42,357 nt of DNA from Betaproteobacteria bacterium HGW-Betaproteobacteria-12 (GTDB taxonomy: Bacteria > Pseudomonadota > Gammaproteobacteria > Burkholderiales > Rhodocyclaceae), in NCBI GenBank assembly GCA_002842345.1, contig PHCU01000012.1, positions 1-42,357 on the forward strand, given 5' to 3'. Positions 1,976-41,412 of the stretch are shown piece by piece (the first letter of the stretch is position 1; each line of letters starts with the position of its first letter). The notes beneath the pieces were generated by a model. The model saw nothing but the letters and a program-made list of their open reading frames with translations, was not told the origin of the DNA and made no database searches. Both the position numbers and the translations under genes were made by a program.

Positions 1976-2911
1976 ATGACCACGCTTATGTGGATGCAGA
2001 CCGGTGCCTGTAGCGGCGAATCGATGGCGCTGCTCTGCGCCGACCGGCCCAACCTGGAAAACCTGCTGCGCCAGTACGCCATCGACCTGCTCTGGCATCC
2101 CTCGCTGACAGTCGGCGACGGTTTCGGCGCTGTCCTGGCGCGGGTGCTGTCCGGCGACATCCCGCTCGACATCCTCTGCATCGAAGGCAGCCTGATGACC
2201 GGCCCCAACGGCACCGGGCAGTTCGACACGTTCAAGGGGCGGGCCAAGATCGACATCGTCCGCGAACTGGCCCCGCGTGCCCGCCACGTCGTCGCCATGG
2301 GCACCTGTGCCGCCTTCGGCGGCGTCCATGCTTCCGGCCCCAACCCGACCGACTGCACCGGCCTGCAGTTCCGGCGCGACCAGCCGGGCGGCCTGCTCGG
2401 CGCCGACTGGCGCGCGGCCAGCGGCCAGCCGGTGATCAACGTCGCCGGCTGCCCGGCCCATCCGAACACGATGACCAAGGTGCTGGCCCTGCTGGCCAGC
2501 GGCGAAACCCTGCCGCTCGATGCACTGAACCGGCCGGCGCCCTTCTTTGCCTCGCTGGTGCATCAGGGCTGCACGCGCAACGAGTATCACGAATACGACA
2601 TCGAGGAAGAAAGCTTCGGCGGCCGCGGCTGCATGTTCTTCAGTCTCGGCTGCCGCGGCCCGCAGACCGTCGCCCCGTGCAATAGCGACCTGTGGAACGG
2701 CCACAGCAGCAAGACGCGGGCGGGCGTGCCCTGCTTCGGCTGCACCTCGCCCGATTTCCCACCGGAACGCGACCTCTTCGTCACGCCACGCATCGGTGCC
2801 GTGCCCAAGTTCCTGCCGCCCGGCGTCGCCCGCGCCAAGTACATGGCCTACAAGAACCTGGCCCGGGCCGCGGCACCGGAACGGGTGGTCAAGCGCGAGA
2901 TGGAACCATGA
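1976..2911 (+). CDS. Group 2 [NiFe]-hydrogenase small subunit, cytosolic
   Basis: A 311-residue FeS subunit of a [NiFe]-hydrogenase with no Tat signal peptide, so the enzyme should stay in the cytoplasm. A strong SD (GGGAGGGG) precedes the ATG. Candidate proximal-cluster ligands are C12 in the N-terminal TGACSGES motif, C111 in MGTCAAFGG and C159 in AGCPAHP. The usual second N-terminal ligand position is Glu15 instead of Cys. Medial and distal ligands lie in HQGCTRNEYHEYD, GRGCMFFSLGCRGP and PCFGCTSPDFP. The GACSG form and the CRGP/SSKTRAG stretch resemble group 2a-type (cyanobacterial HupS-like) small subunits more than the GGCGGC form of HupU/HoxB sensors. Its stop overlaps the large-subunit start by four bases. 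The role is probably sensory or energy-linked H2 oxidation; the downstream kinase favours sensing. Confidence 0.9.
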   Translation: MTTLMWMQTGACSGESMALLCADRPNLENLLRQYAIDLLWHPSLTVGDGFGAVLARVLSGDIPLDILCIEGSLMTGPNGTGQFDTFKGRAKIDIVRELAPRARHVVAMGTCAAFGGVHASGPNPTDCTGLQFRRDQPGGLLGADWRAASGQPVINVAGCPAHPNTMTKVLALLASGETLPLDALNRPAPFFASLVHQGCTRNEYHEYDIEEESFGGRGCMFFSLGCRGPQTVAPCNSDLWNGHSSKTRAGVPCFGCTSPDFPPERDLFVTPRIGAVPKFLPPGVARAKYMAYKNLARAAAPERVVKREMEP

Positions 2912-4425
2912 GCCGGATCACCCTCGACATCGATCTCAACCGGGTTGAAGGCGACCTCGAATTCCAGCTCGACCTGGAAGACGGCATCGTCACCGACGCC
3001 CGCTGCATCGGTACCCTCTACCGCGGCTTCGAGCAGCTGTTGATCGGCCGGGCACCGCGTGACGCCCTGGTTATCACCCCACGCGTCTGCGGCATCTGCG
3101 GCACCGCCCACCTCTACGCGGCGACCCGCGCCCTCGAGCAGCTGGCCGGCATCGTCCCGCCGGCGCACGCCGTCCATGTGCGCAATCTCTGCCTGCTCGC
3201 CGAAACACTGCAGAGCGACCTGCGCCAGACCTTTCTCTTCTTCACCCCCGATTTCTGCGACGCGACCTACGCCGGCCACCCGCTCGCCGGCGAACTGCGG
3301 CAGGCCTTCGCGCCGCTCAAGGGCGATGTCGTGCGCAGTTGCCTGCAGGCGACCCGCGACCTGATCGGCATCGTCGCCGTCTTCGGCGGCCAGTGGCCGC
3401 ATTCGACCTACATGCTGCCCGGCGGCATCAGCCAGCCGGCCAACGCCCGCCGCCTGCTCGACACCCAGGACATCCTGGCGCGCACCCGCGAGTGGTTCGA
3501 AAACACCGTGCTCGGCGGCCCGCTCGCCGACTGGCTGGCCATCGACAGCGGTGCGGCGCTGCAGCGCTGGCAGGAGGCGTCGGCCGCTCGCCAGCGTTCG
3601 GCGCTCGGCCTGTTCAACCGTTTCGCCCGCGCCATCGGCCTGCAGCACCTCGGCCGCGGCAGCAGCCAGCTGCTCAGCTACGGCGTCAATCCGCTGCCCG
3701 GTGATGCCGGCAGCCAGTGGCCGGCCGGCGTCTTCAACGGCGACAGCGGGCAGATCGAAGCGCTCGACCAGCAGCAGATCAACGAGCATGTCCGCCACAG
3801 CTGGTTCCTCGACTATCCGGGCGGCCGCCATCCCTGGCAGGGTGAGACGATTCCCGAGCACCTGCCGGGCGGCGACCGCTACACCTGGGCCAAGGCGCCG
3901 CGCTACGGCGAGCGCGTCATGCAGACCGGGCCGCTGGCCCAGCTGCGCATCGCCGGCGACCCGCTGATCGCCGACCTGCTGGCCGCCGAGGGCGACAACA
4001 CCTGGCTGCGCCAGTTCGCCCGCCTGCGCCGGGCCGGGCAGTTGATCGCCCTGGCCGGCGAAACGCTGACGGCGCTGCGGGCGGTCGTCGACACGCCGCA
4101 TTTCATCGATCCCGGCATCGATGTCTGGCCGGACGGCGAGAGCTACGGCCTGATCGAGGCGGCGCGCGGCGCCCTCGGCCACTGGCTGCGCGTCCGCGAC
4201 GGCGTCATCGACAAGTACCAGATCGTCACCCCCACCGCCTGGAATGCCTCGCCGCGCGACAGCAGCGGCCGCCACGGCCACTGGGAGCAGAGCGTCATCG
4301 GCCTGCGCCTTGCCAATCCCGATCACCCGCTGGAAATCGGCCACATCGTCCGCTCGCACGACCCCTGCCTGGTGTGCACCGTGCATTTCCTCGGCAGCTC
4401 AAGGAAACTGCACATCGATGTCTGA
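2908..4425 (+). CDS. Group 2 [NiFe]-hydrogenase large subunit
   Basis: A 505-residue catalytic subunit. The N-terminal nickel motif is [10 protein letters not shown] (C61, C64) and the C-terminal motif is DPCLVCTVH (C487, C490, H493), so all four Ni-Fe cysteines are present. After His493 there is a 12-residue tail, [12 protein letters not shown]. In most [NiFe] enzymes, residues beyond this His are removed by a dedicated endopeptidase once nickel is inserted, and a HybD/HycI-type endopeptidase domain is encoded by the very next gene. The start ATG overlaps the small-subunit stop (ATGA), and the 3' end overlaps the next gene by eight bases, which implies translational coupling and equal stoichiometry. 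Hyp accessory genes, a cytochrome b partner and a structural uptake enzyme are not in the window. Confidence 0.92.
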
Positions 4426-7102
4426 GCCCGCGCGGCAGCGCATCCTCTGTTTCGGCAATCCGTTGCATGGCGACGACGGCTTCGGCCCGGCCGTCGCCAT
4501 GGCACTACGGCGGCTCACCGACGGGCGGCTGAGCGAAGTCGTCGACTGCGGCATCCGCGGCCTCGATGCCCTGCCGCTGTTCGAGCAGGTCGACCAAGTC
4601 ATCATCGTCGATGCCATGGCCGGCGACCAACCGGGCCGCCTGCACCACCTGCGCCCGGACGAGGTACCGGCGGAGAAAACCGCGGCCGGCGGTCACGGCG
4701 CCGGCGTCGGCTACCTGCTGCAGGCGGTGCGCGAAATGCTGGTCAAGCCGCCGACCATCGCGCTCATCGCCGTCGAGATCGGCGCGCCCGAACCCTTCCG
4801 CCCCGGCCTGTCGCTGCCGGTTGCGGCGGCAGTCGCCGAGGCGGTCGAGGCCATCCGCACCGGCTGGTCGGCGCTGGCCTGCACGACCAGTTGCGAGACG
4901 CGCGGCGAGCTGGCCGTGCTGCGCGAGGCCAACCAGGCGCTGGAAGAAGAGCTGAGCAAGAGCGTCGAGACCCTGGAGTTGCTGATCAGCGACCAGGAGC
5001 AGCAACAAGACGAACTCACGCGGCGGGCCGGCCAGGTGACCCAGCTGCATGACATGCTCGAACGCGCCATCGGCACGATGGCCGAGATATTCATCATGCT
5101 CGACCCGGAGGGCCGCATCCTGCGCGTCAATCCGCTGTTCGGCCAGGAGCTCGGTTACGCTGCCGGGAGCATGGTCGGCCACTATCTGGAAGAATGCATG
5201 CTGGCGGAAGACCTGCGTTTTCTCAAGCAGATCCGCCCGGCAGCCGGCGGCAATCCACCGCTGCTCGGCGCCATCCGGGCCCGCGGTGGCCGCTTTGAGA
5301 TGGAACTGCACCTGAACCCGGTGGCCGGCAGCCAGAGCATTCCCTACCTGATGCGCGCCAGCCTGCTGCATAGCCGCGCCGGCAAGCTGGAAGGCGCCGT
5401 CGTCGTCGCCGCCAACATCTCGGCCCTGACGGCGCGGGAAAATGCCCTGCGCCGGAACGAACGCATGCTGCACGAAGCCGCCGAGGAGCTGCGCCAGCAC
5501 CGCGACAATCTCGCCACCATGGTCGAAGCCCAGACGCACGACCTGCGCCAGGCCAAGGAACAGGCGGAAGCCGCCAGCCGCGCCAAGAGCGAGTTCCTCT
5601 CCAACATGTCGCACGAGGTGCGGACGCCGCTCAACGCCATCCTCGGCCTCACCGATCTGTGTCTGCTCGGCGCCGATCCAGCCAGGCAGCACAGCCATCT
5701 CGGCAACATCCGCAAGGCCGCCGACCACCTGCTCGGGATCATCAACGACATTCTCGACTTCTCGCGCATCGAGGCCGGGCGGCTGGTCCTCGAACGGCTG
5801 CCGATTCACCTGCCTGCGCTGATCGATGAAGTCGCCAGTCTGTTCAGCGGACGCATCCGGGAATGCGGCCTGCAGCTGCGGGTCGACATTTCTCCCGGCA
5901 TCCAGCACAACCTGCTCGGCGATCCGCTGCGCCTGAAGCAGATCCTGATCAACCTGCTCGGCAACGCCGTCAAGTTTTCCGAGTACGGCACCATCGAATT
6001 GCGCTGCGCCATCGACGGCAGCCGGGACGGCGACGAGATGCTGCACTTCCAGGTCATCGACCAGGGCATCGGCATCGCTGCCGCCGAGTGCGAGCTGCTG
6101 TTTGCCGCCTTCAGCCAAGCCGACAATTCGACGACGCGGCGCTACGGCGGCTCCGGCCTCGGTCTGGCGATCAGCAAGCGCCTGGTCGAGTTGATGGGCG
6201 GTCGCATCTGGGTCGACAGCCAGCCCGGCATCGGCAGCAACTTCCAGTTCACCATCCGCCACGAGCCGACCGAGCAGCTGGCCTGCGTTCCCTCGCTGGC
6301 CGGCGCCGCGCCCGATTTCTCGCTGGCCGCCGGTTACCTCGGGCGCGATGTGCTGGTTGTCGACGATGTCGAGATCAACCGCGAAATGCTGGCCGAGATG
6401 CTCAGCGGCGCCGGGCTCGCCGTCCGCCAGGCGGCCAATGGCCTGGAAGCGCTGGCGGCCATTCGCGAGCGGCGGCCGGACATCATCCTGATGGATTGCC
6501 AGATGCCGGTCATGGATGGCTTCGCCGCCACCCGCGAACTGCGCCGGCAGACCACCTACGCCGACCTGCCGATCGTCGCCCTGACCGCCGGCGTGCTGGC
6601 CGACGACAAGGATGCCTGCCGGGCCGCCGGCATGAACGAACACATCGCCAAACCGGTGGTCATCAACGAACTGCTGGCCTGCATCGCCCGCCTGCTCGGC
6701 GCGGCACAGCCGGCTGCCGCAGCGCCCCCGACACCGCCTTTGCCGCCTGCCCTCGACGACCTGCCGCCGCTGGCCGGCATCGATGTCGCCCGCGGCCTGA
6801 CGCTGATGAACCACAAGGGCGACCTCTACCGGCGGATGCTGCGCAAGTTCCGCGATGACGTCGCCGGGTGTTTCGAGCCGGAAATCCGCAAGCAACTGCT
6901 GGCCGGGCGACAGCAGGAGGCGGTGCGCCTGATCCACACGCTGAAGGGCACAGCCCGCACCCTGGGCATCATCGACCTCGGCGAGCGCGCCGCCGAACTG
7001 GAAGCCGAGCTCAAGGCGACCGGCGCCGACCCGGCCAGTCCGCTGCTGCAATCCGTGCTCGACGAATTGAGCAAGGTCTGCGCCGGTCTCGCCGCAATCT
7101 GA
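4418..7102 (+). CDS. Hydrogenase maturation protease domain fused to hybrid sensor kinase (PAS-HisKA-HATPase-REC-HPt)
   Basis: An 894-residue protein. Residues 8-155 form a HybD/HycI/HoxW-type domain: [15 protein letters not shown] at 12-26, VIIVDAM at 61-67 and [11 protein letters not shown] near 91-101. By alignment with HybD the three nickel-contact positions are D20, D65 and H93, all acidic or His as required. Residues about 160-215 are a coiled coil, followed by a PAS domain (about 212-330), a second coiled coil, HisKA with [12 protein letters not shown] (phospho-acceptor H399), HATPase_c ([18 protein letters not shown]), a receiver ([12 protein letters not shown]; acceptor D693) and a C-terminal HPt ([15 protein letters not shown]840). 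There is no membrane segment. The start overlaps the large-subunit gene by eight bases. I infer that the protease-like domain docks on the hydrogenase and couples its state to the phosphorelay. No matching DNA-binding response regulator lies in the window. Confidence 0.9.
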
Positions 7103-7126: not shown

Positions 7127-7900
7127 TCACGCCAGACGCCGGCGAAACACCCAGGTCGTCGCATCCGAGACTTCCGGCGCGTAGGCGTAGCCGTCGCTGG
7201 CGAAATCCTTCAGCCCTTCCGGTTGCGTCAGCCGGTTGAGCACCGCGTAGCGCGTCATCAGGCCGCGCGCCCGTTTGGCGTAGAAGCTGATGATCTTGTA
7301 CTTGCCGTTCTTCCAGTCCTCGAACACCGGCTGGATCAGTTCGCCCTTGATCTTGCGGCCGACGGCGGCCTTGAAATATTCCTCGGAGGCCAGGTTGATC
7401 GCCACCGGCCGCGGCATTTCGGCCAATTCGCCGTTGATCGTCTTGAGCAGGCGCTCGCCCCAGAAGGCGTAGAGATCCTTGCCGCCCTTGTTGGCGAAGC
7501 GGGTGCCCATTTCCAGGCGGTAGGGCTGCATCAGGTCGAGCGGCTTGAGAATGCCGTAGAGGCCGGAGAGGATACGCACCCGGCCCTGGGCGAAAGCGAG
7601 ATCGTCGGCACTCAGCGTCCGGGCTGCCAGACCATCGTAAACATCGCCGTCAAAGGCGAGCGCGGCCTGTTTGGCATTGTCCGGAGTAAACGGCAGCTGC
7701 CAGTCGGCGTAGCGGTTGAAGTTGAGTCGGGCCAGCGGGTCGGAAAGATCCATCAGCGTGGCGATATCGGCCGGCGACAGCTTGCGCAGTTGCTTGATCA
7801 GGCTTTCCGAGTGCTTCAGGAAGGCCGGCTGGGTGAACTCCGCAACATGCGGCGGCGTCGTGTAATCAAGGGATTTGGCCGGGGAAAGGAAGATCAGCAT
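7127..7900 (-). CDS. yaaA: Peroxide stress protein YaaA (DUF328/UPF0246)
   Basis: A 257-residue soluble protein, the full family length. It starts with the family signature [13 protein letters not shown]. It continues with [59 protein letters not shown] and [13 protein letters not shown], all characteristic of YaaA. In E. coli YaaA limits free iron and oxidative DNA damage during peroxide stress and is OxyR-dependent. It is convergent with the hydrogenase operon (24-base gap) and divergent from the DUF2863 gene. The shared 77-base upstream region contains a perfect palindrome that could control both genes. I see no clear SD before the ATG, but the conserved N-terminus fixes the start. Confidence 0.93.
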
Positions 7901-7929
7901 GGGTGAATTTTGTGCATTGCGGTACGCCG

Positions 7930-25951: not shown

Positions 25952-27367
25952 CTACTCTGCAAACCCATAGCCAATCCGCAGCGCCCCCCAGTGCCGGCCC
26001 TGCACCCAGATCGGTGCCGAGACATCCTTCATCAGCACTGTCTCGCCACCCCCCAGGTCGCGGCGGTAGGTTTGCAGCAGGAAAGGCTCCTCGTTGTGCG
26101 CCGCGCGCAGGCCGGTGCGATCCTTGAAGATGCGCCGGTTGCGGCTGAACGCCGCGTTGCGCACCGGGTCGCCACCCTGCGGCTGGGAGAATTGGCGGTT
26201 GTGTGTCGGCAGATAACCGTTACGATCGACCGCGACGCAGAAGGCGACCAGCGGCGACAGGCGCAGCACGGTTTCCTGGACAGCCGGCAGCAACGCATCG
26301 GTCAGCGGCACGAAGTCGGTCATGAACTGCTGCGGATTGCTGCCGGGAATCGCCCGATAGCGCTCGTCGAACAGCTCACCGACGGAAATCTCCCCTGCCA
26401 CCAGCGCCTGCTCGAAGCGCCGGGCAATCTCCGTGGCTGCCCGGGTCGCCGCCACGATGAACGGCGTGTCCTCGGTCTCGACGCCGCTGCTGGCAAAGCG
26501 GGCGATGGCATCCTCGCTGATTTCCAGCAGGCTGCCCGCCTCCTCGCGAATGGCGCCGATCAGCTGCAACGAGCGGGAGAACTCCTCGCCAAACGTACTC
26601 AAGCGCTCGACCGAACGGTCGCAGAGCGCCAGGTTGCCGGCCGACAGGTCCGCCGTCTGGCGCATCAGGTATTCCACCTCGCCGAAATGCGACTCGAAGG
26701 ACTCGATGGCGGCGCTCACTAGGAAGCGCGCATCGCCGCCGGCTTCGCCATCGCGCCCCTGATCGATCTCGTTTTCCAGCGCCTGGACACGCTCGCCGAG
26801 ATGATCGACGACACTGGCGATCTCGCGGCTCGAATCGGCGACCATCTGCGCCAGATCCTTGACGGCCTGGGCGACGACACCGAAGCTGCGCCCGGCTTCG
26901 CCGGCGCGCACCGCCTCGACCGAGGCATTGAAAGCAACGATGCGCGTCTGGAAGGCGATCTTGTTGATCACCTGCGAGGCCTCCGCGACCTGGCGCAGGG
27001 TTGCCGAGACGTCGGCGATGGCCTGCTCGACGCGGACCACCGAATCGGCCAGGCCAGCGGCACGGTCGAGCGCTGCGCGCACCTCACCATGCGTCGTTTC
27101 GGCCTTGTGCACACCATGGCGGGCCCGTTCGGCGATACCGCGATTGCCGTCGATCATGGCCGCCAGCGAACTGCGCACTTCACCGAACACCCGGGTGGCC
27201 TGATCGGTCAGCAAGCCCAGGTCGTCGGCCGAACCGGCAATGCTGGCGGCGCTGCGCCCGATGCCGGCCAGGCGATGGGCCGAGGCGGCCAGCAATTGTT
27301 CGGCGTCGACGGCCGGCGCCGGCCGACTGGCAAGGGAATGGGAATCGGCTGGCGACTGGCCATGCAT
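25952..27367 (-). CDS. Soluble methyl-accepting chemotaxis-like protein with C-terminal Cache-like sensor
   Basis: A 471-residue protein with no signal peptide or membrane helix. I set the start at MHGQSPADS (27367) because AGGAG lies seven bases upstream; the frame stays open further but without support. The N-terminal half is a helical MCP signalling domain, with the hairpin-tip region INKIAFQTRIVAFNASVEAV and RAGEAGRSFGVVAQAVKDLA. The C-terminal 140 residues (FTDFVPLTDALLPAVQETVL-like region, VDRNGYLPTHNRQFSQPQGG, GRHWGALRIGYGF) resemble a Cache-type ligand domain, which in membrane receptors would sit at the N-terminus. Domain order is therefore inverted, and the sensor is cytosolic. It diverges from the acetate kinase fusion gene. 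Confidence 0.85.
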   Translation of the reverse strand: MHGQSPADSHSLASRPAPAVDAEQLLAASAHRLAGIGRSAASIAGSADDLGLLTDQATRVFGEVRSSLAAMIDGNRGIAERARHGVHKAETTHGEVRAALDRAAGLADSVVRVEQAIADVSATLRQVAEASQVINKIAFQTRIVAFNASVEAVRAGEAGRSFGVVAQAVKDLAQMVADSSREIASVVDHLGERVQALENEIDQGRDGEAGGDARFLVSAAIESFESHFGEVEYLMRQTADLSAGNLALCDRSVERLSTFGEEFSRSLQLIGAIREEAGSLLEISEDAIARFASSGVETEDTPFIVAATRAATEIARRFEQALVAGEISVGELFDERYRAIPGSNPQQFMTDFVPLTDALLPAVQETVLRLSPLVAFCVAVDRNGYLPTHNRQFSQPQGGDPVRNAAFSRNRRIFKDRTGLRAAHNEEPFLLQTYRRDLGGGETVLMKDVSAPIWVQGRHWGALRIGYGFAE

Positions 27368-27459
27368 GGGAGGTCTCCTCTGTCTTTTTTGTCGGGATCG
27401 GCACGGCTGGCCGGAACATCCCTGGGGTCGGCGTGAGCATAGCCGATGTCCGCAGCAAA

Positions 27460-27516
27460 ATTGCGCGGCGCAATGCCGGCCGGCCCGCCTGCCTCCTTTG
27501 CTGCACCGCAACAAAG
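27460..27516. promoter_or_regulatory. Two palindromes between the chemoreceptor and acetate kinase fusion genes
   Basis: A perfect 15-base palindrome (27460-27474, ATTGCGC arms around one base) and a near-perfect 21-base palindrome (27496-27516, CTTTGCTGC/GCAACAAAG arms with one mismatch) lie in the 190-base divergent region. The second ends 41 bases before the ATG of the fusion gene. These are candidate operators; the regulator is unknown. Confidence 0.4.
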
Positions 27517-27557
27517 TGATACCCTTGGCCGACAATAATCCACCGCAGAGACCAGCC

Positions 27558-29879
27558 ATGAGCGACATCGATCTGAAACGCTTCTTCCTCGAAAACGTGC
27601 CCTTGTTCGAGCACTTTCCCGCCGACAAGGTCGAGGAGATCGTCCTCAAATCCCGCCTCGCCACCTACGAAGGCAATGAAGCCATCCTCGAGACCGGCGA
27701 CGAGGGCCACTGCATCGGCATCATGATCAGCGGCCACGCCGAGATTTCGCTGACCGACAACATCGGCACCCGCGCCGTGATCAGCCAGCTCGAAGCCGGC
27801 GACGTCTTCGGCGTCATGTCGCTGCTCACCGGCGACCGCATCGTCGCCGACGTCATCGCCGGCAACCGCTGCTTCGTGCTGATGATTCCGCAGGAGGTCT
27901 TCAACACCCAGATCCTGACCAATCCCAAGGCCGTCGGCTACCTCTCCCGGCTGCTCGCCGACCGCACGCGCGCCATGAGCAGCGATCTGGCCGGCGCCCA
28001 GGCGCGCGCCCTGGTCCGTTCGGAAGATCCCTACGCGCTGTCGCTGACCAGCAATACGCCGGGCAAGATCGTCGCCCTCAACGTCGGCCTCAGTCAGATC
28101 CATTTCGGCATCTACGACACCGCCGAGAGCGGTGCCGACATCCACGGCATCATCGACAACGCCGACCAGCCGTTCGCCCGCATCACGGTCCGGGTCGGAC
28201 CGCAGCTGCAGACCATGGAACAGGTGCCGTTCCAGCTCGCCGACCTGTTCAGGGTGATGGCCGAGGCCACCGCCCGGCTCGGCCCGGCCTTCACCTTCCA
28301 CCCGGAAGACGTCACCGCCATCGGCCACCGCGTCGTCCATGGCGGCAACAAGTTCTCCAGCTCGGTCGTCATCACCCCGGCGGTGATCGCCGATATCGAG
28401 GAACTGGCCGTCTTCGCGCCGCTGCACAACCCGGTCAACGTCGCCGGCATCCGCGTCGCCCTGCAGCAGTTCCCCAACCTGCCGCAGGTCGCCGTCTTCG
28501 ACACCGCCTTTCACCAGACGCTGGCGCCCTACGCCTACCTCTACGGCCTGCCCTACGACCTGTACAAGCAGCACGGCATCCGCCGCTACGGCTTCCACGG
28601 CACCTCGCACCGCTACGTCTCGCTGAAGGCGGCGGAAGTCCTCAAGCGGCCGCTCGGCGAACTGGAAATCGTCTCCTGCCACCTCGGCATCGGCGCCTCG
28701 CTGTGCGCCATCGACCACGGCCGCTCGGTCGACACGACCATGGGCATGACGCCGACCGACGGCCTGATCATGCCCAGCCGCTCGGGCAGCATCGACCCGG
28801 CAGTGATGATCCACCTGATGGAACAGCACGGCCTGTCGGCCGAGCAACTGTCATCGCTGATCAATACCGAAAGCGGCCTCAAGGGCATTTCCGGCATCTC
28901 CAGCGACATCCACGAGATCGAGGCGGCGGCGGCTGATGGCCACCACCGCGCCCTGCTCGCCCACAAGGCCTTCTGCTACCAGGTGCGCAAGAACATCGGC
29001 GCCTATGTCGCGGCGATGGGCGGCATCGATGTCCTGGCCTTCACCGGCGATGTCGGCGAAAGCAGTGCTACGGTACGCAGCCTGGCCTGCCAGGGCCTCG
29101 GTTACATGGGCATCAAGCTCGACGAGGAAAAGAACCGCAATCTCGGCCAGTTCGGTTCGCATGCAGTGATCTCGGCCGACGACTCGCCGGTCAAGATTCT
29201 CGTCGTCACCAACGACGACGAGCGTCTGGTGGCCTGGGAGGCGCTGCGCGCCATCGAGCGCAACCAGCTACTGCTGGAAGCCCGGGCCGGCGAGACGCCG
29301 GCCATTCCGGTGGAAATCTCGGCGCACCACGTGCATCTGGCGCAGGCCGACGTCGAGGCGCTGTTCGGCCCCGGCCACCAGCTGACACCGATGCACGAAC
29401 TGTCGCAGCCCGGCCAGTTCGCCTGCGAGGAGCAAGTGCATCTGGTCGGTCCGAAGGGACGCATCGCCAAGGTCCGCGTGCTCGGTCCGACACGCAAGGA
29501 AACCCAGGTCGAGATCGCCATGACCGAGCAGTTCAAGCTCGGCATCCAGCCGCCGATCCGCCAGTCCGGCGACCTCGCCGGCACTCCCGGGATCACGCTC
29601 GAAGGCCCGTACGGCAGCACCACCATCGAACGCGGCGTGGTCTGCGCCCAGCGCCACATCCACATGGCGCCGGAAGATGCGCTGCGTTTCCGCGTCCGTG
29701 ACAACTATGTCGTCCGCGTCCGCGTCGAAGGCGAACGCGAACTGATCTTCGGTGACGTCGTCGTCCGCGTGAATCCGGCCTTCCGCCTGGCCATGCACAT
29801 CGATACCGACGAAGGCAACGCCGGCAACATCCGCACCGGCATGCTCGGCTACATCGAGGAAATCCAGAGCCGCCACTGA
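27558..29879 (+). CDS. Fusion of cyclic nucleotide-binding domain, acetate kinase and PduL-type phosphotransacylase
   Basis: A 773-residue three-part protein. Residues 8-125 are a CNB/Crp-type barrel (GDVFGVMSLLTGDRIVADV); the usual FGE glutamate is Val, so ligand binding is uncertain. Residues about 170-545 are an acetate/propionate kinase with GHRVVHGG (R258), APLHNPVNV (H290), FDTAFHQ (D315), RYGFHGTSH (H347) and SRSGSIDP (R408). Yet N-V-G-L-S-Q-I-H (175-182) replaces the usual NxGSSSxK, I378 replaces the Asn of CHLGNGAS, and GDVGES replaces GIGEN. Residues about 580-760 are PduL: SAHHVHL (H590, H591, H593), AQRHIHM (H700, H702) and HIDTDEGNA (H747), the zinc-site histidines. Together the domains would interconvert acetyl-CoA, acetyl phosphate and acetate. 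The start ATG follows the palindromes. Confidence 0.9.
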   Translation: MSDIDLKRFFLENVPLFEHFPADKVEEIVLKSRLATYEGNEAILETGDEGHCIGIMISGHAEISLTDNIGTRAVISQLEAGDVFGVMSLLTGDRIVADVIAGNRCFVLMIPQEVFNTQILTNPKAVGYLSRLLADRTRAMSSDLAGAQARALVRSEDPYALSLTSNTPGKIVALNVGLSQIHFGIYDTAESGADIHGIIDNADQPFARITVRVGPQLQTMEQVPFQLADLFRVMAEATARLGPAFTFHPEDVTAIGHRVVHGGNKFSSSVVITPAVIADIEELAVFAPLHNPVNVAGIRVALQQFPNLPQVAVFDTAFHQTLAPYAYLYGLPYDLYKQHGIRRYGFHGTSHRYVSLKAAEVLKRPLGELEIVSCHLGIGASLCAIDHGRSVDTTMGMTPTDGLIMPSRSGSIDPAVMIHLMEQHGLSAEQLSSLINTESGLKGISGISSDIHEIEAAAADGHHRALLAHKAFCYQVRKNIGAYVAAMGGIDVLAFTGDVGESSATVRSLACQGLGYMGIKLDEEKNRNLGQFGSHAVISADDSPVKILVVTNDDERLVAWEALRAIERNQLLLEARAGETPAIPVEISAHHVHLAQADVEALFGPGHQLTPMHELSQPGQFACEEQVHLVGPKGRIAKVRVLGPTRKETQVEIAMTEQFKLGIQPPIRQSGDLAGTPGITLEGPYGSTTIERGVVCAQRHIHMAPEDALRFRVRDNYVVRVRVEGERELIFGDVVVRVNPAFRLAMHIDTDEGNAGNIRTGMLGYIEEIQSRH

Positions 29880-29899: not shown

Positions 29900-33496
<3,597 letters not shown>

Positions 33497-33812
33497 CACA
33501 GGCCCGAAGTTCGGAGATGGCGCAACAGTTTGGCGCCGGCGCGCACAGTTTACCCTTTAAGCCCTGACGGCATCGGGGGTTTTCCGGCCGGGCAGGCACC
33601 CGGCCCGGCACTCGCCGGTTGCGACCTGCACCGGCGCCGGCTCGCCGAATAGGCCAAGGCCCAACATGCCGTGGCCATCAGCGGATGACGCACGGGTTTC
33701 CGGCAATTTCCCGGTAGTTGACCATTGCCGGAGCAGAACGGGATACTGCGGCCAGACCATCAGGTGCCAGCTGCAACACGCCCTGCCAGGAAACCAGAAC
33801 CGCCCCGGAGAC
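33497..33812. other. 316-base divergent intergenic region
   Basis: This region separates the CBS kinase from the GGDEF/EAL gene. The only element I can support is a sigma70-like promoter on the plus strand at 33718-33747. No conserved coding frame, tRNA or long repeat is seen in the rest; short open frames here have no recognisable product. Confidence 0.5.
33718..33747 (+). promoter_or_regulatory. Sigma70-like promoter of the GGDEF/EAL gene
   Basis: TTGACC (33718-33723) and GATACT (33742-33747) are separated by 18 bases, matching the consensus at five and four of six positions. The predicted start site is about 60 bases before the ATG at 33813. Confidence 0.42.
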
Positions 33813-35747
33813 ATGTCGATCCGTTCCCTGTACCCACCGCTCCCCGGCGGCTCCGGCCAAGCTGCCGCGCCCGGTCCGGGCAATCGCGGCATCCGCACGC
33901 GCCTGGCGCTGCTCGGGCTGCTCTGCGTCCTCTTTCTGCTGCTCTGGTGGTGGGAATCGTCGCTGGTCATCCGCGGCGCCCTGGCCCTGTTCATCGTCGC
34001 CGGCGGCTACGTTGTCCACGCCCAGTTGCGCAAGCTGTGGGCGACGCAGCGCGCCTACCAGCTGGCCATGGAAGCCGCGCACGACGGTTTCTGGGCCTGG
34101 AACCCAGTCAGCAAGCGCCTCTATGTCGGCACCCGGCTGCTGGAAATCCTCGGCTACCGCGACAACTTCCTGCCCGACACGCATGCCTGGCTGGAACTGG
34201 TGCATCCCGAAGACCGCGCCCATTACAACCGGACCGTCGCCGAACACCTGAAGGGCCGCAGCCCGCACTTCTATTGCGAATACCGCGTCCGCGCCAGTAA
34301 CGGCCAGTATCTGTGGATCGCCTCGCGCGGCATCGCCGTGCGCGACCGGCATGGCGTCGCCTACCAGATGGCCGGTTCAGTCACCGACATCACCGAACGC
34401 AAGCTGCACGACGAGGAAGTCGCCTTCATGGCCCAGCACGACCCGCTGACCGGCCTGCCCAACCGCTTCCTGCTTGCCGAGAAACTCGGCGAGGCACTGC
34501 AACAGGCGGTAGCAAGGGACGAACATATCGCCCTGCTGTTCATCGACCTCGACCGTTTCAAGGACATCAACGATTCGCTCGGCCACCGTCTCGGCGACCG
34601 CCTGCTGCAGGATGTCGCCGGACGCCTGAGCGCTGCACTGGGCAAGGGCGAAACGCTGGTGCGCCAGGGCGGCGACGAATTCATCGTGCTGCTTACCGAC
34701 ATCGGCGATGGCGAGATGGCCGAAGTCCGGGCCCGCGATTTCCTCGAGCACCTGAACCAGCCCTTCGTCACCGACGGCAACCAGCTGCACGTCGGCGCCA
34801 GCATCGGCCTCAGCCTGTACCCGGACGATGCTGCCGACGCCGAGCAACTGCTGCGCGACGCCGATACCGCGATGTACGTGGCCAAGCGCCAGGGCGGGGG
34901 GCTGGTCGCCCGGCACACGCCGGAAATGAAGGAACGCGTGCAGTTGCGCGCCTCGATCGAAGCGCGCCTGCACCGGGCCATCGCCGAGCAGGCCTTCACC
35001 CTGCACTACCAGCCCAAGTTCGACACCGCCAGCGGCCGCCTGCTCGGCGCCGAGGCGCTGCTGCGCTGGCAGGACGACGGCCAGTGGATCCCGCCCGACC
35101 GCTTCATCTCGGTGGCCGAGGAAACCGGCCTGATCATTCCCCTCGGCCACTGGGTGCTGAGCGAGGCGATCGCCTGCCTGGCCCGCTGGAACCAGCAGTC
35201 GCCGACGCCGCTGCACATGGCCATCAACCTGTCGGCCCGCCAGTTCTGGCCCGGCGACCTGGCCGAGACGGTGGCGGCGCTGTGCGCCGAACATGGCGTC
35301 GCCTGCGCGCAGATCGAACTGGAAGTCACCGAATCGATGTTGCTGCAGGCCGAAGGCAACCACGTCGACATGCTGCACACCATGCGCGCCCACGGTTTCC
35401 GCCTGGCCCTGGACGATTTCGGCACCGGCTATTCGTCGCTCTCCTATTTGCACCGCCTGCCCTTCACCAGCCTGAAGATTGACCGCAGCTTCGTCGCCGC
35501 CCTGATCGACGAGGCCGGCGACTATGCCGGCGGCAGCGCCCTGGTGCCGGCGATCATCACCATGGCCCACAACCTCGGCCTCGAAGTCGTTGCCGAAGGC
35601 GTCGAGACGGCGGCGCAACTGGTGCTGCTGCGCGATTTCCATTGCGACATCCACCAGGGTTACCTGAGCGGTCGGCCGATGCCGGAAGCCGACTTCCGCC
35701 AACGCTTCCTCGACGCGCCACCGGCATCCGCCACCCCGGCTTTTTGA
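33813..35747 (+). CDS. Membrane PAS-GGDEF-EAL protein (cyclic di-GMP turnover)
   Basis: A 644-residue protein. Two transmembrane helices near residues 30-70 (LALLGLLCVLFLLLWWW, then ALALFIVAGGYVV) are separated by a very short loop, so there is no large periplasmic sensor. A PAS/PAC domain (about 85-200, ending VTDITERK) precedes GGDEF with an intact RQGGDEFIVLL active site. The RxxD inhibitory site five residues upstream is absent. EAL is complete: GAEALLRW, INLSARQFW, DDFGTGYSSLSYL, KIDRSF and VAEGVET. Both cyclase and phosphodiesterase activities are possible. The start at MSIRSLYP is chosen because it places the first helix normally; an ATG at 33666 is also in frame, but it lies upstream of the predicted promoter. 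Confidence 0.9.
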   Translation: MSIRSLYPPLPGGSGQAAAPGPGNRGIRTRLALLGLLCVLFLLLWWWESSLVIRGALALFIVAGGYVVHAQLRKLWATQRAYQLAMEAAHDGFWAWNPVSKRLYVGTRLLEILGYRDNFLPDTHAWLELVHPEDRAHYNRTVAEHLKGRSPHFYCEYRVRASNGQYLWIASRGIAVRDRHGVAYQMAGSVTDITERKLHDEEVAFMAQHDPLTGLPNRFLLAEKLGEALQQAVARDEHIALLFIDLDRFKDINDSLGHRLGDRLLQDVAGRLSAALGKGETLVRQGGDEFIVLLTDIGDGEMAEVRARDFLEHLNQPFVTDGNQLHVGASIGLSLYPDDAADAEQLLRDADTAMYVAKRQGGGLVARHTPEMKERVQLRASIEARLHRAIAEQAFTLHYQPKFDTASGRLLGAEALLRWQDDGQWIPPDRFISVAEETGLIIPLGHWVLSEAIACLARWNQQSPTPLHMAINLSARQFWPGDLAETVAALCAEHGVACAQIELEVTESMLLQAEGNHVDMLHTMRAHGFRLALDDFGTGYSSLSYLHRLPFTSLKIDRSFVAALIDEAGDYAGGSALVPAIITMAHNLGLEVVAEGVETAAQLVLLRDFHCDIHQGYLSGRPMPEADFRQRFLDAPPASATPAF

Positions 35748-35770
35748 TCTACCCCCGGGCGCGGTATAGT
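35744..35770 (+). promoter_or_regulatory. Candidate promoter of trmA
   Basis: TATAGT at 35765-35770 is a good -10 hexamer. TTGATC at 35744-35749 could serve as -35 with a short 15-base spacer. It begins at the end of the GGDEF/EAL gene and lies 66 bases before trmA. Confidence 0.35.
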
Positions 35771-35835
35771 CCGCCCCCTGCCCAATTTTCCCGACCGCCG
35801 GCGCCCTTCGCGGCGCTGCCCGCCGCCCCCGATCC

Positions 35836-36924
35836 ATGCCCCTGCCCAGTCTCGACCCCGCCGACTACCCGGCGCAACTTGCCGCCAAGGTCGCCCGTTT
35901 CCAGGACGACTTCGCCGCCTTCACCCTGCCCGAACCGGCGGTGTTCGCCTCGCCGCCACTGCATTACCGACTGCGCGCCGAATTTCGTATCTGGCATCAC
36001 GGCGAGGTCTTCGACTACGCCATGTTCGACCCGGAGAATCCCCGCCAGCCGGTGCTGATGGCCGACTTTCCGGCCGCCAGCGCCAGCATCTGCGCCTTGA
36101 TGCCGCGCCTGCGCGCTGCGCTGCTGGCCGACGCCGAGCTCAGCCGCAAATTGTTCGGGGCCGAGTTCCTGGCGACGCTGAGCGGCGAGATGCTGGTCAC
36201 CCTGATCTACCACCGCAAGCTCGATGAATCCTGGGAAAGCGCGGCCCGCATCCTGGCCGGCAAATTGCAGATCGGGCTGATCGGGCGCAGCAAGGGGCAG
36301 AAGGTCGTCCTCGAGCGCGACTGGGTACTCGAGTCCTTCGAGTTGAACGGCCGGCAGCTTCAGTACCAGCAGTTCGAAGGCAGCTTCAGCCAGCCCAACG
36401 CCGAGGTCAATCGCCACATGCTCGGCTGGGCCTGCGCCCAGGCTGCCGGCAGCGACGGCGACCTGCTCGAACTGTACTGCGGCAACGGCAACTTCACCGT
36501 CGCCCTGGCCCCGCACTTCGGCCGGGTGCTGGCCACCGAGGTCAGCAAGCCCTCGGTGCAGGCGGCGCAATACAACCTGGCGGCCAACGGCATCGCCAAC
36601 GCCGCCATCGTCCGCATGTCGAGCGAGGAGATCAGCGCCGCCCTGGCCGGTCGCGAAAGCTTTCAGCGGCTGAAGGACATCGACCTCGCCGGCCACCGCT
36701 TCACGACCATCTTCGTCGACCCGCCGCGCAGCGGCCTCGATCCGGCGACGCTGGAACTGGCCCGCGGCTTCGACCGGATCCTGTACATCTCCTGCAATCC
36801 GCAGACCCTGCGCGACAACGTCGCCGCCCTGCACACCACGCACGCCATCGCCGCCGCCGCCGCCTTCGACCAGTTTCCCTATACGCAGCACCTGGAAACC
36901 GGGGTTCTGCTGAAAAAACGCTGA
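35836..36924 (+). CDS. trmA: tRNA (uracil-5-)-methyltransferase
   Basis: A 362-residue SAM-dependent enzyme that forms ribothymidine-54 in tRNA. The TrmA-specific N-terminus contains HYRLRAEFRIWHHGE and YAMFDPENPRQPV. FEGSFSQPNAEVNRHML leads into motif I, LLELYCGNGNFTVAL. Further motifs are IFVDPPRSGLDPATL, the nucleophile loop YISCNPQTL (C320) and the general base near the C-terminus in QHLETGVLL (E354). The length is that of E. coli TrmA. A candidate promoter lies at 35744-35770. This is a core gene inside the block that separates cysH from cysD. Confidence 0.95.
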   Translation: MPLPSLDPADYPAQLAAKVARFQDDFAAFTLPEPAVFASPPLHYRLRAEFRIWHHGEVFDYAMFDPENPRQPVLMADFPAASASICALMPRLRAALLADAELSRKLFGAEFLATLSGEMLVTLIYHRKLDESWESAARILAGKLQIGLIGRSKGQKVVLERDWVLESFELNGRQLQYQQFEGSFSQPNAEVNRHMLGWACAQAAGSDGDLLELYCGNGNFTVALAPHFGRVLATEVSKPSVQAAQYNLAANGIANAAIVRMSSEEISAALAGRESFQRLKDIDLAGHRFTTIFVDPPRSGLDPATLELARGFDRILYISCNPQTLRDNVAALHTTHAIAAAAAFDQFPYTQHLETGVLLKKR

Positions 36925-37016
36925 AAACCTTTCTCTGCTAAGCTCGATCTGCAGCTTGACCGTTCCCCGCCGGATACCGCCCGGATCCGGCGACGGGGCT
37001 CACCGCAGACCGAGAC

Positions 37017-38666
37017 ATGAGTGCCTTCAGCGAATTCTCCCTGCTGCTGATCATCTCCGCCCTGGCTGGCGCCGTCTCGGTGCGTCTGCGCCAGCCGTTG
37101 ATCATCGCCTACATCGTCGTTGGCATCGTCGCCGGGCCGGCCGCCCTCGGCCTGGTCAGCGCCCATGACCAGATCGACCTGCTGGCCCAGGTCGGCATCG
37201 CCGTGCTGCTCTTCCTCGTCGGCCTCAAGCTCGACCTGCAGCATGTCCGCCATATCGGCCCGGTCGCCCTGGCCACCGGCCTCGGCCAGCTGGCCTTCAC
37301 TATCGCCGGCGGCTTCGCGCTGATCCTGCTGCTCGGCAAGGGGGTCATGGAAGCGCTCTACGTCGCCATCGCGCTGACCTTCTCCAGCACCATCATCATC
37401 GTCAAGCTGCTCTCCGACAAACGCGAGCTGGATGCCCTGCACGGCCGCATCGCCGTCGGCTTCCTGATCGTCCAGGATCTGGCCGTGGTGCTGGCGATGA
37501 TGGCGATGAGCGCCCTGCGCGGCAGCGACGAGGCAGCGCTGGCCGAAGTCGTCTTCTCGCTGGCCTGGCGCGTGCTGCTCGCCGCCGCCGTGCTCTACCT
37601 GCTGATGCGCTGGCTGTTACCGGGCATCGTCAAGGCCATGGCCCATTCGCAGGAACTGCTGCTGATTTTCGCCATCGCCTGGGGCACCGGACTGGCGGCG
37701 CTCGGCGAATGGGCCGGTTTTTCCAAGGAGGCCGGCGCCTTCCTCGCCGGTTTCTCGCTCGCCTCGACCGCCTACCGCGATGCCATCAACGCCCGCCTGG
37801 CCGGCATCCGCGATTTCCTGCTGCTGTTTTTTTTCATCGACCTCGGCTCCAAGCTCGACTTCTCGACGCTCGGCGGCGAAATCGTCCCGGCCATCGTGCT
37901 GTCGCTGTTCGTGCTGATCGGCAATCCGCTGATCGTCATGGCGATTATGGGCTACATGGGCTACCGCAAACGCACCGGCTTCCTCGCCGGCCTGACCGTC
38001 GCCCAGATCAGCGAGTTTTCCATCGTCTTCGTCGCCATGGGCATCTCGCTCGGCCATGTCGGCGTCGGAGCGCTCGGCCTGACGACGCTGGTCGGCCTGG
38101 TCACCATCGCCCTGTCGACCTACATGATCCTCTACTCGCAATTCCTCTACGAGCGGCTAGCCCCGCTGCTCGGCGCCTTCGAGCGGCGCGTCCCCTTCCG
38201 CGAACAGGCGGTGGAGAACGACCGGCGCAGCAATGACGTACCGGACGTGGTGATCTTCGGCCTCGGCCGCTACGGCGGCCGGCTCGCCCAGCAGCTGCAG
38301 GCGGCCGCGGTGCGCGTGCTGGGCGTCGATTTCGATCCGGAATGCGTCAGCGAGATGCGCCAGCGCGGCATCGCCGTGCATTACGGCGACGCCCAGGAAT
38401 CGGGCTTTCTCGACGAACTGCCGCTAAAGCACGCCAAATGGGTGGTCAGCACGCTGCCCGACCTCGAATCCAACCTGGCCTTCCTCAACGCTCTGAAGGA
38501 ACACCACTTCACCGGCGAGGTCGCCTTCGTCGCCCGCGACGATGCTGACGGCCTGGCGCTCAAGCAGGCCGGCGCGCCGACCGTGCTCTACCCGATGCGC
38601 GATGCCGTCGACTACACCGTCGAACATTTCGTCGCCCTGATCCGTCCCGAGGAGAATGCCCCATGA
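37017..38666 (+). CDS. Kef-type potassium/proton antiporter with RCK (TrkA-N) domain
   Basis: A 549-residue CPA2 antiporter. About twelve hydrophobic segments span residues 1-385, with LLFLVGLKLDLQ, ALTFSSTIIIVKLLSDK and FLIVQDLAVVLAM (the family's QD motif in helix 5) and EAGAFLAGFSLAST. The cytosolic RCK/TrkA-N domain starts VVIFGLGRYGGRLAQQLQ (Rossmann NAD site) and ends near residue 540. It resembles YbaL/KefB-like systems. No KefG/KefF ancillary quinone reductase is adjacent; instead a double Usp protein gene overlaps its stop by four bases, suggesting that protein may be a regulatory partner. Confidence 0.9.
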   Translation: MSAFSEFSLLLIISALAGAVSVRLRQPLIIAYIVVGIVAGPAALGLVSAHDQIDLLAQVGIAVLLFLVGLKLDLQHVRHIGPVALATGLGQLAFTIAGGFALILLLGKGVMEALYVAIALTFSSTIIIVKLLSDKRELDALHGRIAVGFLIVQDLAVVLAMMAMSALRGSDEAALAEVVFSLAWRVLLAAAVLYLLMRWLLPGIVKAMAHSQELLLIFAIAWGTGLAALGEWAGFSKEAGAFLAGFSLASTAYRDAINARLAGIRDFLLLFFFIDLGSKLDFSTLGGEIVPAIVLSLFVLIGNPLIVMAIMGYMGYRKRTGFLAGLTVAQISEFSIVFVAMGISLGHVGVGALGLTTLVGLVTIALSTYMILYSQFLYERLAPLLGAFERRVPFREQAVENDRRSNDVPDVVIFGLGRYGGRLAQQLQAAAVRVLGVDFDPECVSEMRQRGIAVHYGDAQESGFLDELPLKHAKWVVSTLPDLESNLAFLNALKEHHFTGEVAFVARDDADGLALKQAGAPTVLYPMRDAVDYTVEHFVALIRPEENAP

Positions 38667-39541
38667 CCCCCTGCATCCTGGCCGCCACCGATCTCTCCGC
38701 CCCCTCCCGCCATGCCGTCGACCGTGCCTACCGGCTGGCCGCCGAGCGCGGCTGGCCGCTGACCCTGGCCCACGCCATCGCCCCCGGCCTGTTCGACGAA
38801 CTGCAGGCGATGCTCGGCGGCGATGCGCCGTCGATCGCCGACGCGGTCACCGCCGGCGCTTGCGCCCGGCTGGCCGGGCTGAACCAGGATCTGCGGCGGA
38901 CGCATGGCGTCGTCGCCCGTTGCGAGGTGCTCAGCGGCGTCCCGGTCACCGCCCTGGCCAGCCACGCCGAGGCGATCGGCGCCGGATTGCTGGTCCTCGG
39001 CGCCCGCGGCGAAGACTTCCTGCGCCAGTTGATGTTGGGCTCGACCGCCTCGCGCCTGCTGCGCAAGACCCGCCGGCCGGTGCTGGTGGTCAAGCAACCG
39101 CCGCACGAAAGCTACCAGCGGGCGCTGGTCGCCATCGATTTTTCCCCCGCCTCGCTGGCCGCCCTGCGCCTGGTTCGGCACCTGGCCCCGGGTGCCACGC
39201 TGGTGCTGCTGCATGCCGTCGAACTGCCCTTCGAGGGCAAGATGCAGTACGCCAATGTGGACGACGAGATCATCCGCCGCTACCGGCAGGAGGCCCAGCA
39301 GGAAGCCGTCCGCAAACTACGCGAACTGGCTGCCGGCGAGCAGCTGCCGCTGCCGGCAACCCGGCTGCTGGCGCTGCCCGGCAAGCCGGCCCGGCTGCTT
39401 CTCGAACACGAGCAGGAAGAGGACTGCGACCTGATCGTCGTCGGCAAGCATGGCGTCAATGTGGTCGAGGAACTGCTGCTCGGCAGCACCACCAAGCACG
39501 TGCTCGGCGAAGCCCAGGGCGACGTGCTGGTGTCGGTCTGA
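38663..39541 (+). CDS. Universal stress protein with two Usp domains
   Basis: A 292-residue protein with tandem Usp domains. The first (1-148) begins CILAATDLSAPSRHAVDRAY and ends LLVLGARGEDFLRQLMLGST. The second (about 149-292) begins RALVAIDFSPASLAALRLVR and ends LIVVGKHGVNVVEELLLGST. The GxxG-x9-G(S/T) pattern at the ends indicates ATP-binding type domains. Translation is coupled to the upstream antiporter by an ATGA overlap. The gene is convergent with the NhaP2-type antiporter, leaving six bases between stops. Confidence 0.92.
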   Translation: MTPCILAATDLSAPSRHAVDRAYRLAAERGWPLTLAHAIAPGLFDELQAMLGGDAPSIADAVTAGACARLAGLNQDLRRTHGVVARCEVLSGVPVTALASHAEAIGAGLLVLGARGEDFLRQLMLGSTASRLLRKTRRPVLVVKQPPHESYQRALVAIDFSPASLAALRLVRHLAPGATLVLLHAVELPFEGKMQYANVDDEIIRRYRQEAQQEAVRKLRELAAGEQLPLPATRLLALPGKPARLLLEHEQEEDCDLIVVGKHGVNVVEELLLGSTTKHVLGEAQGDVLVSV

Positions 39542-39547
39542 ACGCGG

Positions 39548-41299: not shown

Positions 41300-41383
41300 C
41301 GCCCGAATCTATCACAGCGTCCCAATTTGGCAGGACAGCCGGATGATTATTCCAATATTGAATATAACAATGACCACATGTTC

Positions 41384-41412
41384 TTAAATTGGCATTAAGC
41401 CCTTGCTAGAAT
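41384..41412 (+). promoter_or_regulatory. Candidate cysD promoter with extended -10
   Basis: TAGAAT (41407-41412) is preceded by TGC, forming an extended -10 element. The -35 position (TTAAAT, 41384-41389) is poor, as expected for an activator-dependent promoter. The AT-rich stretch 41344-41390 upstream includes CCAATATT (41352-41359), also present upstream of the tauE-cysI operon, and is a candidate CysB target. Confidence 0.45.

Follow-up and report, generated by a model that had tools for sequence, protein, structure and literature searches.

Hydrogen-sensing [NiFe]-hydrogenases of group 2b (HupUV, HoxBC) are cytosolic and coupled to a PAS histidine kinase (HupT, HoxJ). According to passages of PMC10073562, the regulatory hydrogenase (RH) signals to HoxJ, and HoxJ phosphorylates HoxA when H2 is absent. 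The HydDB labels quoted in part of PMC5037454 describe group 2b as histidine kinase-linked and group 2c as putatively diguanylate cyclase-linked. Endopeptidases cut the tail of the hydrogenase large subunit after cofactor insertion; the RH large subunit has no tail (passages of PMC7294309). Two such proteases, HydD and HyaD, bind stably to the Hyd-5 large subunit in a cofactor-dependent way (excerpts of PMC5299533), and HycI, kinase and EAL families appear in excerpts of PMC12727194 as conserved neighbours of [NiFe]-hydrogenases in general. Here, we describe a 42,357-nucleotide stretch of Betaproteobacteria bacterium HGW-Betaproteobacteria-12 (contig PHCU01000012.1; the window), in which a maturation protease and a phosphorelay kinase are fused in one gene beside a hydrogenase that appears to be group-2c-like. 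It is probable, though well short of certain, that the gene encodes a dedicated maturation endopeptidase tethered to an H2-responsive kinase whose sensor subunit it finishes.

Like the group 2b systems, the locus pairs a probably cytosolic [NiFe]-hydrogenase with a PAS histidine kinase. What sets it apart is a 12-residue tail on the large subunit, a protease fused to a kinase of the hybrid phosphorelay kind, and a CxxE motif in the small subunit. The same genome also has a 2b-like sensor, to which we assign Hup names: HupV, HupU and a HupT-like kinase (contig C81, about 30909-40040). This HupT-like kinase is a 457-aa PAS-HisKA-HATPase protein, unlike the fused hybrid kinase.

The locus appears to resemble group 2c in the type of its L2 motif, and its large subunit is 57% identical to that of a Methylobacter locus with a PAS-PAS-GGDEF-EAL protein; a Methylobacter is also the best match of the 2c-type genes in passages of PMC4853749. 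The L2 motif resembles the 2c consensus SFDxCLVCTVH given there, departing from it at F as Thiomargarita does. Unlike group 2c, the output is a phosphorelay kinase, and the diguanylate cyclase link was not found at this locus. A further difference from group 2c, as far as the passages of PMC4853749 describe it, is that the protease is a frequent neighbour here and is fused in the window. We regard the locus as a putative 2c-like cassette for H2 sensing in which the protease has become fused.

A maturation protease and a kinase in one reading frame

As a preliminary description of the window had proposed, the two parts form a single open reading frame (ORF) of 894 aa with no internal stop, which shares eight bases (4418-4425) with the large-subunit gene. 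The domain order is HycI/HybD-type protease, coil, PAS, HisKA, HATPase, REC (receiver) and HPt. In the kinase part, Pfam matches HisKA (E 2.5e-19), HATPase_c (6.8e-29), Response_reg (1.8e-25) and Hpt (2e-9); PAS_4 (2.5e-4) lies at 21.7 bits, slightly under its cut-off of 23.1. With all four domains and the phospho-sites H399, D693 and H840, this part is a full hybrid phosphorelay histidine kinase, and its proposed place beside a group-2-type hydrogenase is upheld. The HisKA-HATPase-REC-HPt order is that of BarA, TorS and ArcB. BarA and TorS are the best NCBIfam models, all 25 models listed being under their cut-offs; unlike these kinases, the fused protein has a protease-coil-PAS input region and, judged by eye, no membrane part. 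An assembly artefact or frame error can be ruled out because the same in-frame fusion recurs in five other genomes, including one where it lies on a single contig of 4.2 Mb.

The assignment of residues 8-155 to the maturation protease family also stands. Pfam HycI matches at E 5.4e-14 (52.6 bits against a cut-off of 23), and E. coli HybD (2kml and 1cfz) matches residues 8-146 at E 3.4e-7 and 3.8e-7. D20, D65 and H93 align with HybD E16, D62 and H93, which we take to be metal ligands; these residue numbers, and those of the three phospho-sites, had been given correctly. Residues 1-152 were modelled with AlphaFold2 (AF2) from 30 family members, at a mean pLDDT of 89. When the model was searched against the Protein Data Bank (PDB), the first ten rows were solved hydrogenase maturation proteases (E 3.6e-10 to 1.5e-7); 1cfz_A matched at E 5.6e-10 with a TM score of 0.77, placing the domain in the HybD fold. 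Chance similarity to HycI/HybD is rejected by the Pfam match, the HybD alignment and the fold search. The domain is like the HybD, HycI and HupD endopeptidases in family, fold, ligand residues and gene position beside the large subunit; the solved members are free proteins of 148-162 aa, whereas here the domain is the N-terminal part of an 894-aa kinase.

The ligand positions are conserved. D or E, D and H stand at positions 20, 65 and 93 in 66 of 67 aligned HycI rows, the exception being clipped by a contig end; the rows comprise 65 from the family described below (two loci repeated) and the genome's two ordinary proteases. In the fused genes, dN/dS (Nei-Gojobori script) is alike in protease domain and kinase: 0.15 and 0.14 between G218 and L047, 0.29 and 0.27 between L040 and L041. 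Across 62 loci, HycI distances track large-subunit distances (r 0.85, a value that none of 2000 Mantel shuffles reached); small- and large-subunit distances correlate at r 0.92. A dead relic is not supported, since ligand residues and constraint are kept. The domain retains what would be expected of a functional maturation protease and is probably active.

Relatives were collected by scanning genome contigs with five aligned large subunits. Together with the window, G218 and G062, the 80 best of the 570 loci confirmed make 83 distinct loci; G088 repeats L044 and G187 repeats L105. The protease is fused beside the hydrogenase in six of the 83: the window, G218 (same genus), three metagenome-assembled genomes named Betaproteobacteria or Proteobacteria (L040, L041, L047) and the gammaproteobacterium Thiorhodococcus drewsii (L042). 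On the large-subunit tree, these six form one clade (bootstrap 100, SH-aLRT 99), with which seven loci with separate HycI, named Rhodocyclaceae, Azonexaceae or Zoogloeaceae, group at the next node (99/92). The tree needs one state change to the fused form: the fusion arose once. A FastTree of HycI domains likewise groups the six (support 1.0); the wider clade of 30 is not recovered there as one group. Five of the six fused genes have the same MSE start and the 8-bp overlap with the large subunit, the start in L042 not being settled.

The fusion is rare. A protease-coil-PAS query was matched over its whole length only by the window and G218 among 300 genomes of the order, and only the window among 369 genomes of the class; among 398 genomes of the phylum, HycI in a frame longer than 700 aa was found in the window only. 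Four of the other long frames with HycI were inspected. Those at L159 and L160 were set aside as looking, by eye, like chance open frames that continue from an out-of-frame hydrogenase gene. A real but different HycI fusion was seen on the minus strand at L157:835-2562 and L158:731-2368, where HycI is followed by HypF Kae1-like C-terminal domains.

No description of a maturation protease-kinase fusion was found in the literature searched, a search that left most subscription papers outside its coverage. Of the earlier suggestion of a new sensing architecture, the novelty of the architecture is to that extent upheld; the sensing role is not, as the relatives show.

The putative sensor cassette and its probable signal input

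The usual gene order in the family is small subunit, large subunit, HycI, effector. HycI lies near the large subunit in 64 of the 83 loci, fused in six and separate in 58 (at L070 about 4 kb downstream); none was found near it in the other 19, where five of the contigs run out within 2.5 kb. The sensor cassette thus regularly includes the protease. The effectors are 57 histidine kinases and 14 GGDEF proteins (10 with EAL); in 12 loci the effector is cut or none was found.

A coil-PAS profile built from the six fused proteins matches the effector, whether kinase or GGDEF-EAL protein, at each of the 23 distinct unfused close-clade loci that showed one. The match is near full length in 22 of the 23; the L052 effector is spread over two frames, and that of L058 breaks off behind the PAS. 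No effector was found at the close-clade loci L059 and L066, and beyond the close clade no match is better than E 5.6e-5. Output type switched at least seven times on the tree of all loci. Since unfused effectors of different outputs carry the coil-PAS, the H2 input more likely passes through it: comparison across the close clade points to the coil-PAS, not the protease, as the shared input part, and the protease is probably not the sensor. The proposal that the protease domain serves as the sensing module is accordingly not supported.

An N-terminal Rieske-type domain precedes the coil in nine effectors (L046, L048, L049, L053, L054, L110, L051, L064 and L036). Six of them are kinases of the neighbouring clade, which has seven; the other three are GGDEF-EAL proteins. 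Their matches to Pfam Rieske range from E 5.7e-8 to 1.6e-3, and six of the nine pass the cut-off. The pattern CxH...CxxH occurs in nine of 738 frames longer than 400 aa, all accounted for by these effectors; the six fused proteins do not have it, and the protease occupies that place. The Rieske-type [2Fe-2S] domain is a candidate electron acceptor in an H2 sensor. In the available part of a 2015 regulatory hydrogenase study (PMC5665086), the cytoplasmic electron acceptor is given as yet unknown. No description of a Rieske domain on an H2-sensor effector was found in the literature searched, in which subscription papers are mostly uncovered.

Both hydrogenase subunits are probably cytosolic, judged by eye from their N-termini; the small subunit shows no Tat signal. 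Their best solved matches are 7uus/7utd and 7uur, presumably the group 2a enzyme Huc. At the proximal CxxC of the small subunit, whose residues we assume to be cluster ligands, the place of the second Cys is taken by Asp in 73, Glu in 5 and Asn in 2 of 80 readable rows, which makes CxxD/E in 78 (the 85 rows include two loci twice; no small subunit was found for three, and the site could not be read in two). The same genome's HupU has CGGC and the solved 7uur small subunit has CSGN, as against CxxE in the window. For the large subunit, a start at 2908 fits homologues better than the ORF start at 2692. Its 12-residue tail length recurs in G218, G088 and G062; G187 has six residues.

Features of the window

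Table 1. Position and supporting evidence of the hydrogenase genes, the fused gene and its domains in the window
Feature	Position	Strand	Evidence
[NiFe]-hydrogenase small subunit	1976..2911	+	Oxidored_q6 1.7e-25, NiFe_hyd_SSU_C 3.1e-24; best solved match 7uur_D, E 3e-89
Proximal-cluster motif C12-S-G-E15, Glu replacing second Cys of CxxC	2009..2020	+	Asp in most relatives
[NiFe]-hydrogenase large subunit, 505 aa, group-2c-like	2908..4425	+	NiFeSe_Hases 1.8e-77 on longer frame; start by homology
L2 motif DPCLVCTVH	4360..4386	+	Large-subunit sequence
C-terminal tail, 12 residues, presumed protease substrate	4387..4422	+	Follows DPCLVCTVH
Fused protease-kinase, 894 aa	4418..7102	+	ORF (ATG to stop) and Pfam
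HycI/HybD-type maturation protease domain, residues 8-148; D20, D65, H93	4439..4861	+	Pfam, alignments, AF2 model and fold search
Linker and likely coiled coil (by eye), residues 149-205	4862..5032	+	Homologous to N-terminal coil of unfused effectors
PAS domain, residues 206-340, likely input module	5033..5437	+	PAS_4 under cut-off; coil-PAS profile common to unfused effectors
HisKA, H399	5582..5779	+	Pfam
HATPase_c	5918..6262	+	Pfam
Receiver domain, D693	6350..6685	+	Pfam
HPt domain, H840	6836..7078	+	Pfam

An ORF at 7223-7906 (+) was rejected as an operon member: its GC3 is 0.62, against 0.83 on the opposite strand, where the encoded protein appears to us to resemble YaaA.

Three other features of the window were recorded. 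At 27240-29879, one ORF combines a cyclic-nucleotide-binding domain, acetate kinase and phosphate propanoyltransferase (PTAC), an unusual-looking fusion. At 29900-33499 (-) there is a hybrid kinase with three CBS matches, PAS, GAF, HisKA, HATPase, REC and HPt. A 462-aa ORF at 40010-41398 has no Pfam match at E 1e-4 and may not be a gene.

Proposed role and alternatives

In the reading favoured here, the group-2c-like cytosolic hydrogenase (1976-4425) would be the H2-sensing part of a signalling complex, and its large subunit would be made with a short C-terminal tail. The N-terminal protease domain would recognise the nickel-loaded large subunit and remove the tail, permitting pairing with the small subunit. 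The finished hydrogenase would then act on the coil-PAS of the fused protein and so control the kinase, which would drive a His-Asp-His phosphorelay to a putative regulator. The tether would provide protease and kinase in equal amounts and place the kinase at the hydrogenase as the latter matures.

The distribution of tails bears on this. A tail of 5 to 18 residues is present in all 65 rows with HycI close behind. Three loci (L104, L108, L112), all in one Desulfamplus clade, are tail-less: their large subunits stop precisely at DPCMVCSVH, and no neighbouring HycI was detected in any of them. The same genome's HupV ends exactly at DPCMVCTVH, with no tail. The HycI nearest to this 2b-like sensor is about 8 kb away, beside another large subunit that is taken as group 1; thus, of the tailed and tail-less sensor hydrogenases in the genome, only the tailed one has a protease in its own operon.

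Across relatives, the median tail is 12 residues in 61 rows with HycI and 6 in 17 rows without (raw p 0.016), seven rows with fewer than 900 following bases having been dropped and L070 counted as without HycI. In six independent pairs, with the tail limit set at 7, 8 or 10 residues, an average of 1.8 went in the same direction and 0.4 in the opposite one; for any tail against none, independent pairs gave one in the same direction and none opposite.

Several observations weigh against the proposed role. The association between tail and protease is not significant once relatedness is corrected for, and a clean link between the two was dropped as an argument. Tails are just 5-8 residues in 7 of the 61 HycI-bearing rows, and reach 12 or more in 7 of the 17 rows without HycI close behind, L070 among them. 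Such tailed large subunits might use a protease elsewhere in the genome. In a laxer search of 20 rows without close HycI, the only copies found were about 4 kb downstream at L070 and 5-6 kb upstream at L085 and L096, where the upstream HycI adjoins another large-subunit gene. The AF2 model is weakest at residues 90-93 (pLDDT below 50), the loop that holds H93. No response regulator with an output domain was found adjoining the fused gene. Finally, cleavage, H2 sensing, signal direction and the benefit of the tether are steps that we infer.

The protease domain could instead be mainly a docking clamp that binds the large subunit and holds the kinase on the hydrogenase, H2 being sensed via the PAS. 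The sister clade, where six of seven effectors have the Rieske-type domain at the same N-terminal place, lends this some support, as the hydrogenase may bind there. Unfused relatives, however, have the coil-PAS without a fused clamp, and conserved ligand residues and a tail suit plain proteolysis equally; we consider the clamp unlikely. A kinase that reports on the nickel loading or the maturation of the large subunit, with the protease domain as detector, appears improbable. Passages of PMC5299533 report that the interaction of the Hyd-5 protease with its large subunit was undetected in a cofactor-deficient strain, and a kinase fusion would offer a direct route from such binding to phosphorylation. 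Directly ahead of the kinase, the coil is also well conserved (80% between the window and G218). In the stretch from the protease to that coil, linker-coil and PAS are each 49% identical between the two, whereas the protease reaches 67% and the kinase core 61%. The coil-PAS is moreover the shared close-clade input even where the protease gene is separate, and no feature was found that favours a detector in particular.

A mixed form of these ideas, in which the protease would grip the nickel-loaded, tailed large subunit and hold the kinase in one state until tail cutting, and then H2, switched it, is a rather speculative suggestion to which we give little weight; if true, one protein would read both the amount of finished hydrogenase and the presence of H2.

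The fusion might also be neutral, two overlapping co-translated genes having merged with no new interaction. In 16 of 23 unfused loci looked at, a presumed effector start codon overlaps the HycI end by 4-11 bases, so that a small change could fuse them, and the tree needs only the single event; of the other loci three allow only larger overlaps and four have a gap, which at L052 includes the split frame. Six genomes, ranging from betaproteobacterial lineages to Thiorhodococcus, have nevertheless retained the fused form, the two halves of which are similarly constrained; we consider a neutral merger very improbable.

The tethered maturation protease remains our preferred explanation. The loci reveal a large class of putative H2 sensors that differ from the HoxBC type studied so far in often having their own maturation protease gene, up to its fusion with the signalling protein. 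The shared coil-PAS marks the probable entry of the H2 signal, whatever the output, and the Rieske-type domain makes the question of the electron acceptor testable. The fused form offers a single-chain handle for structure and biochemistry.

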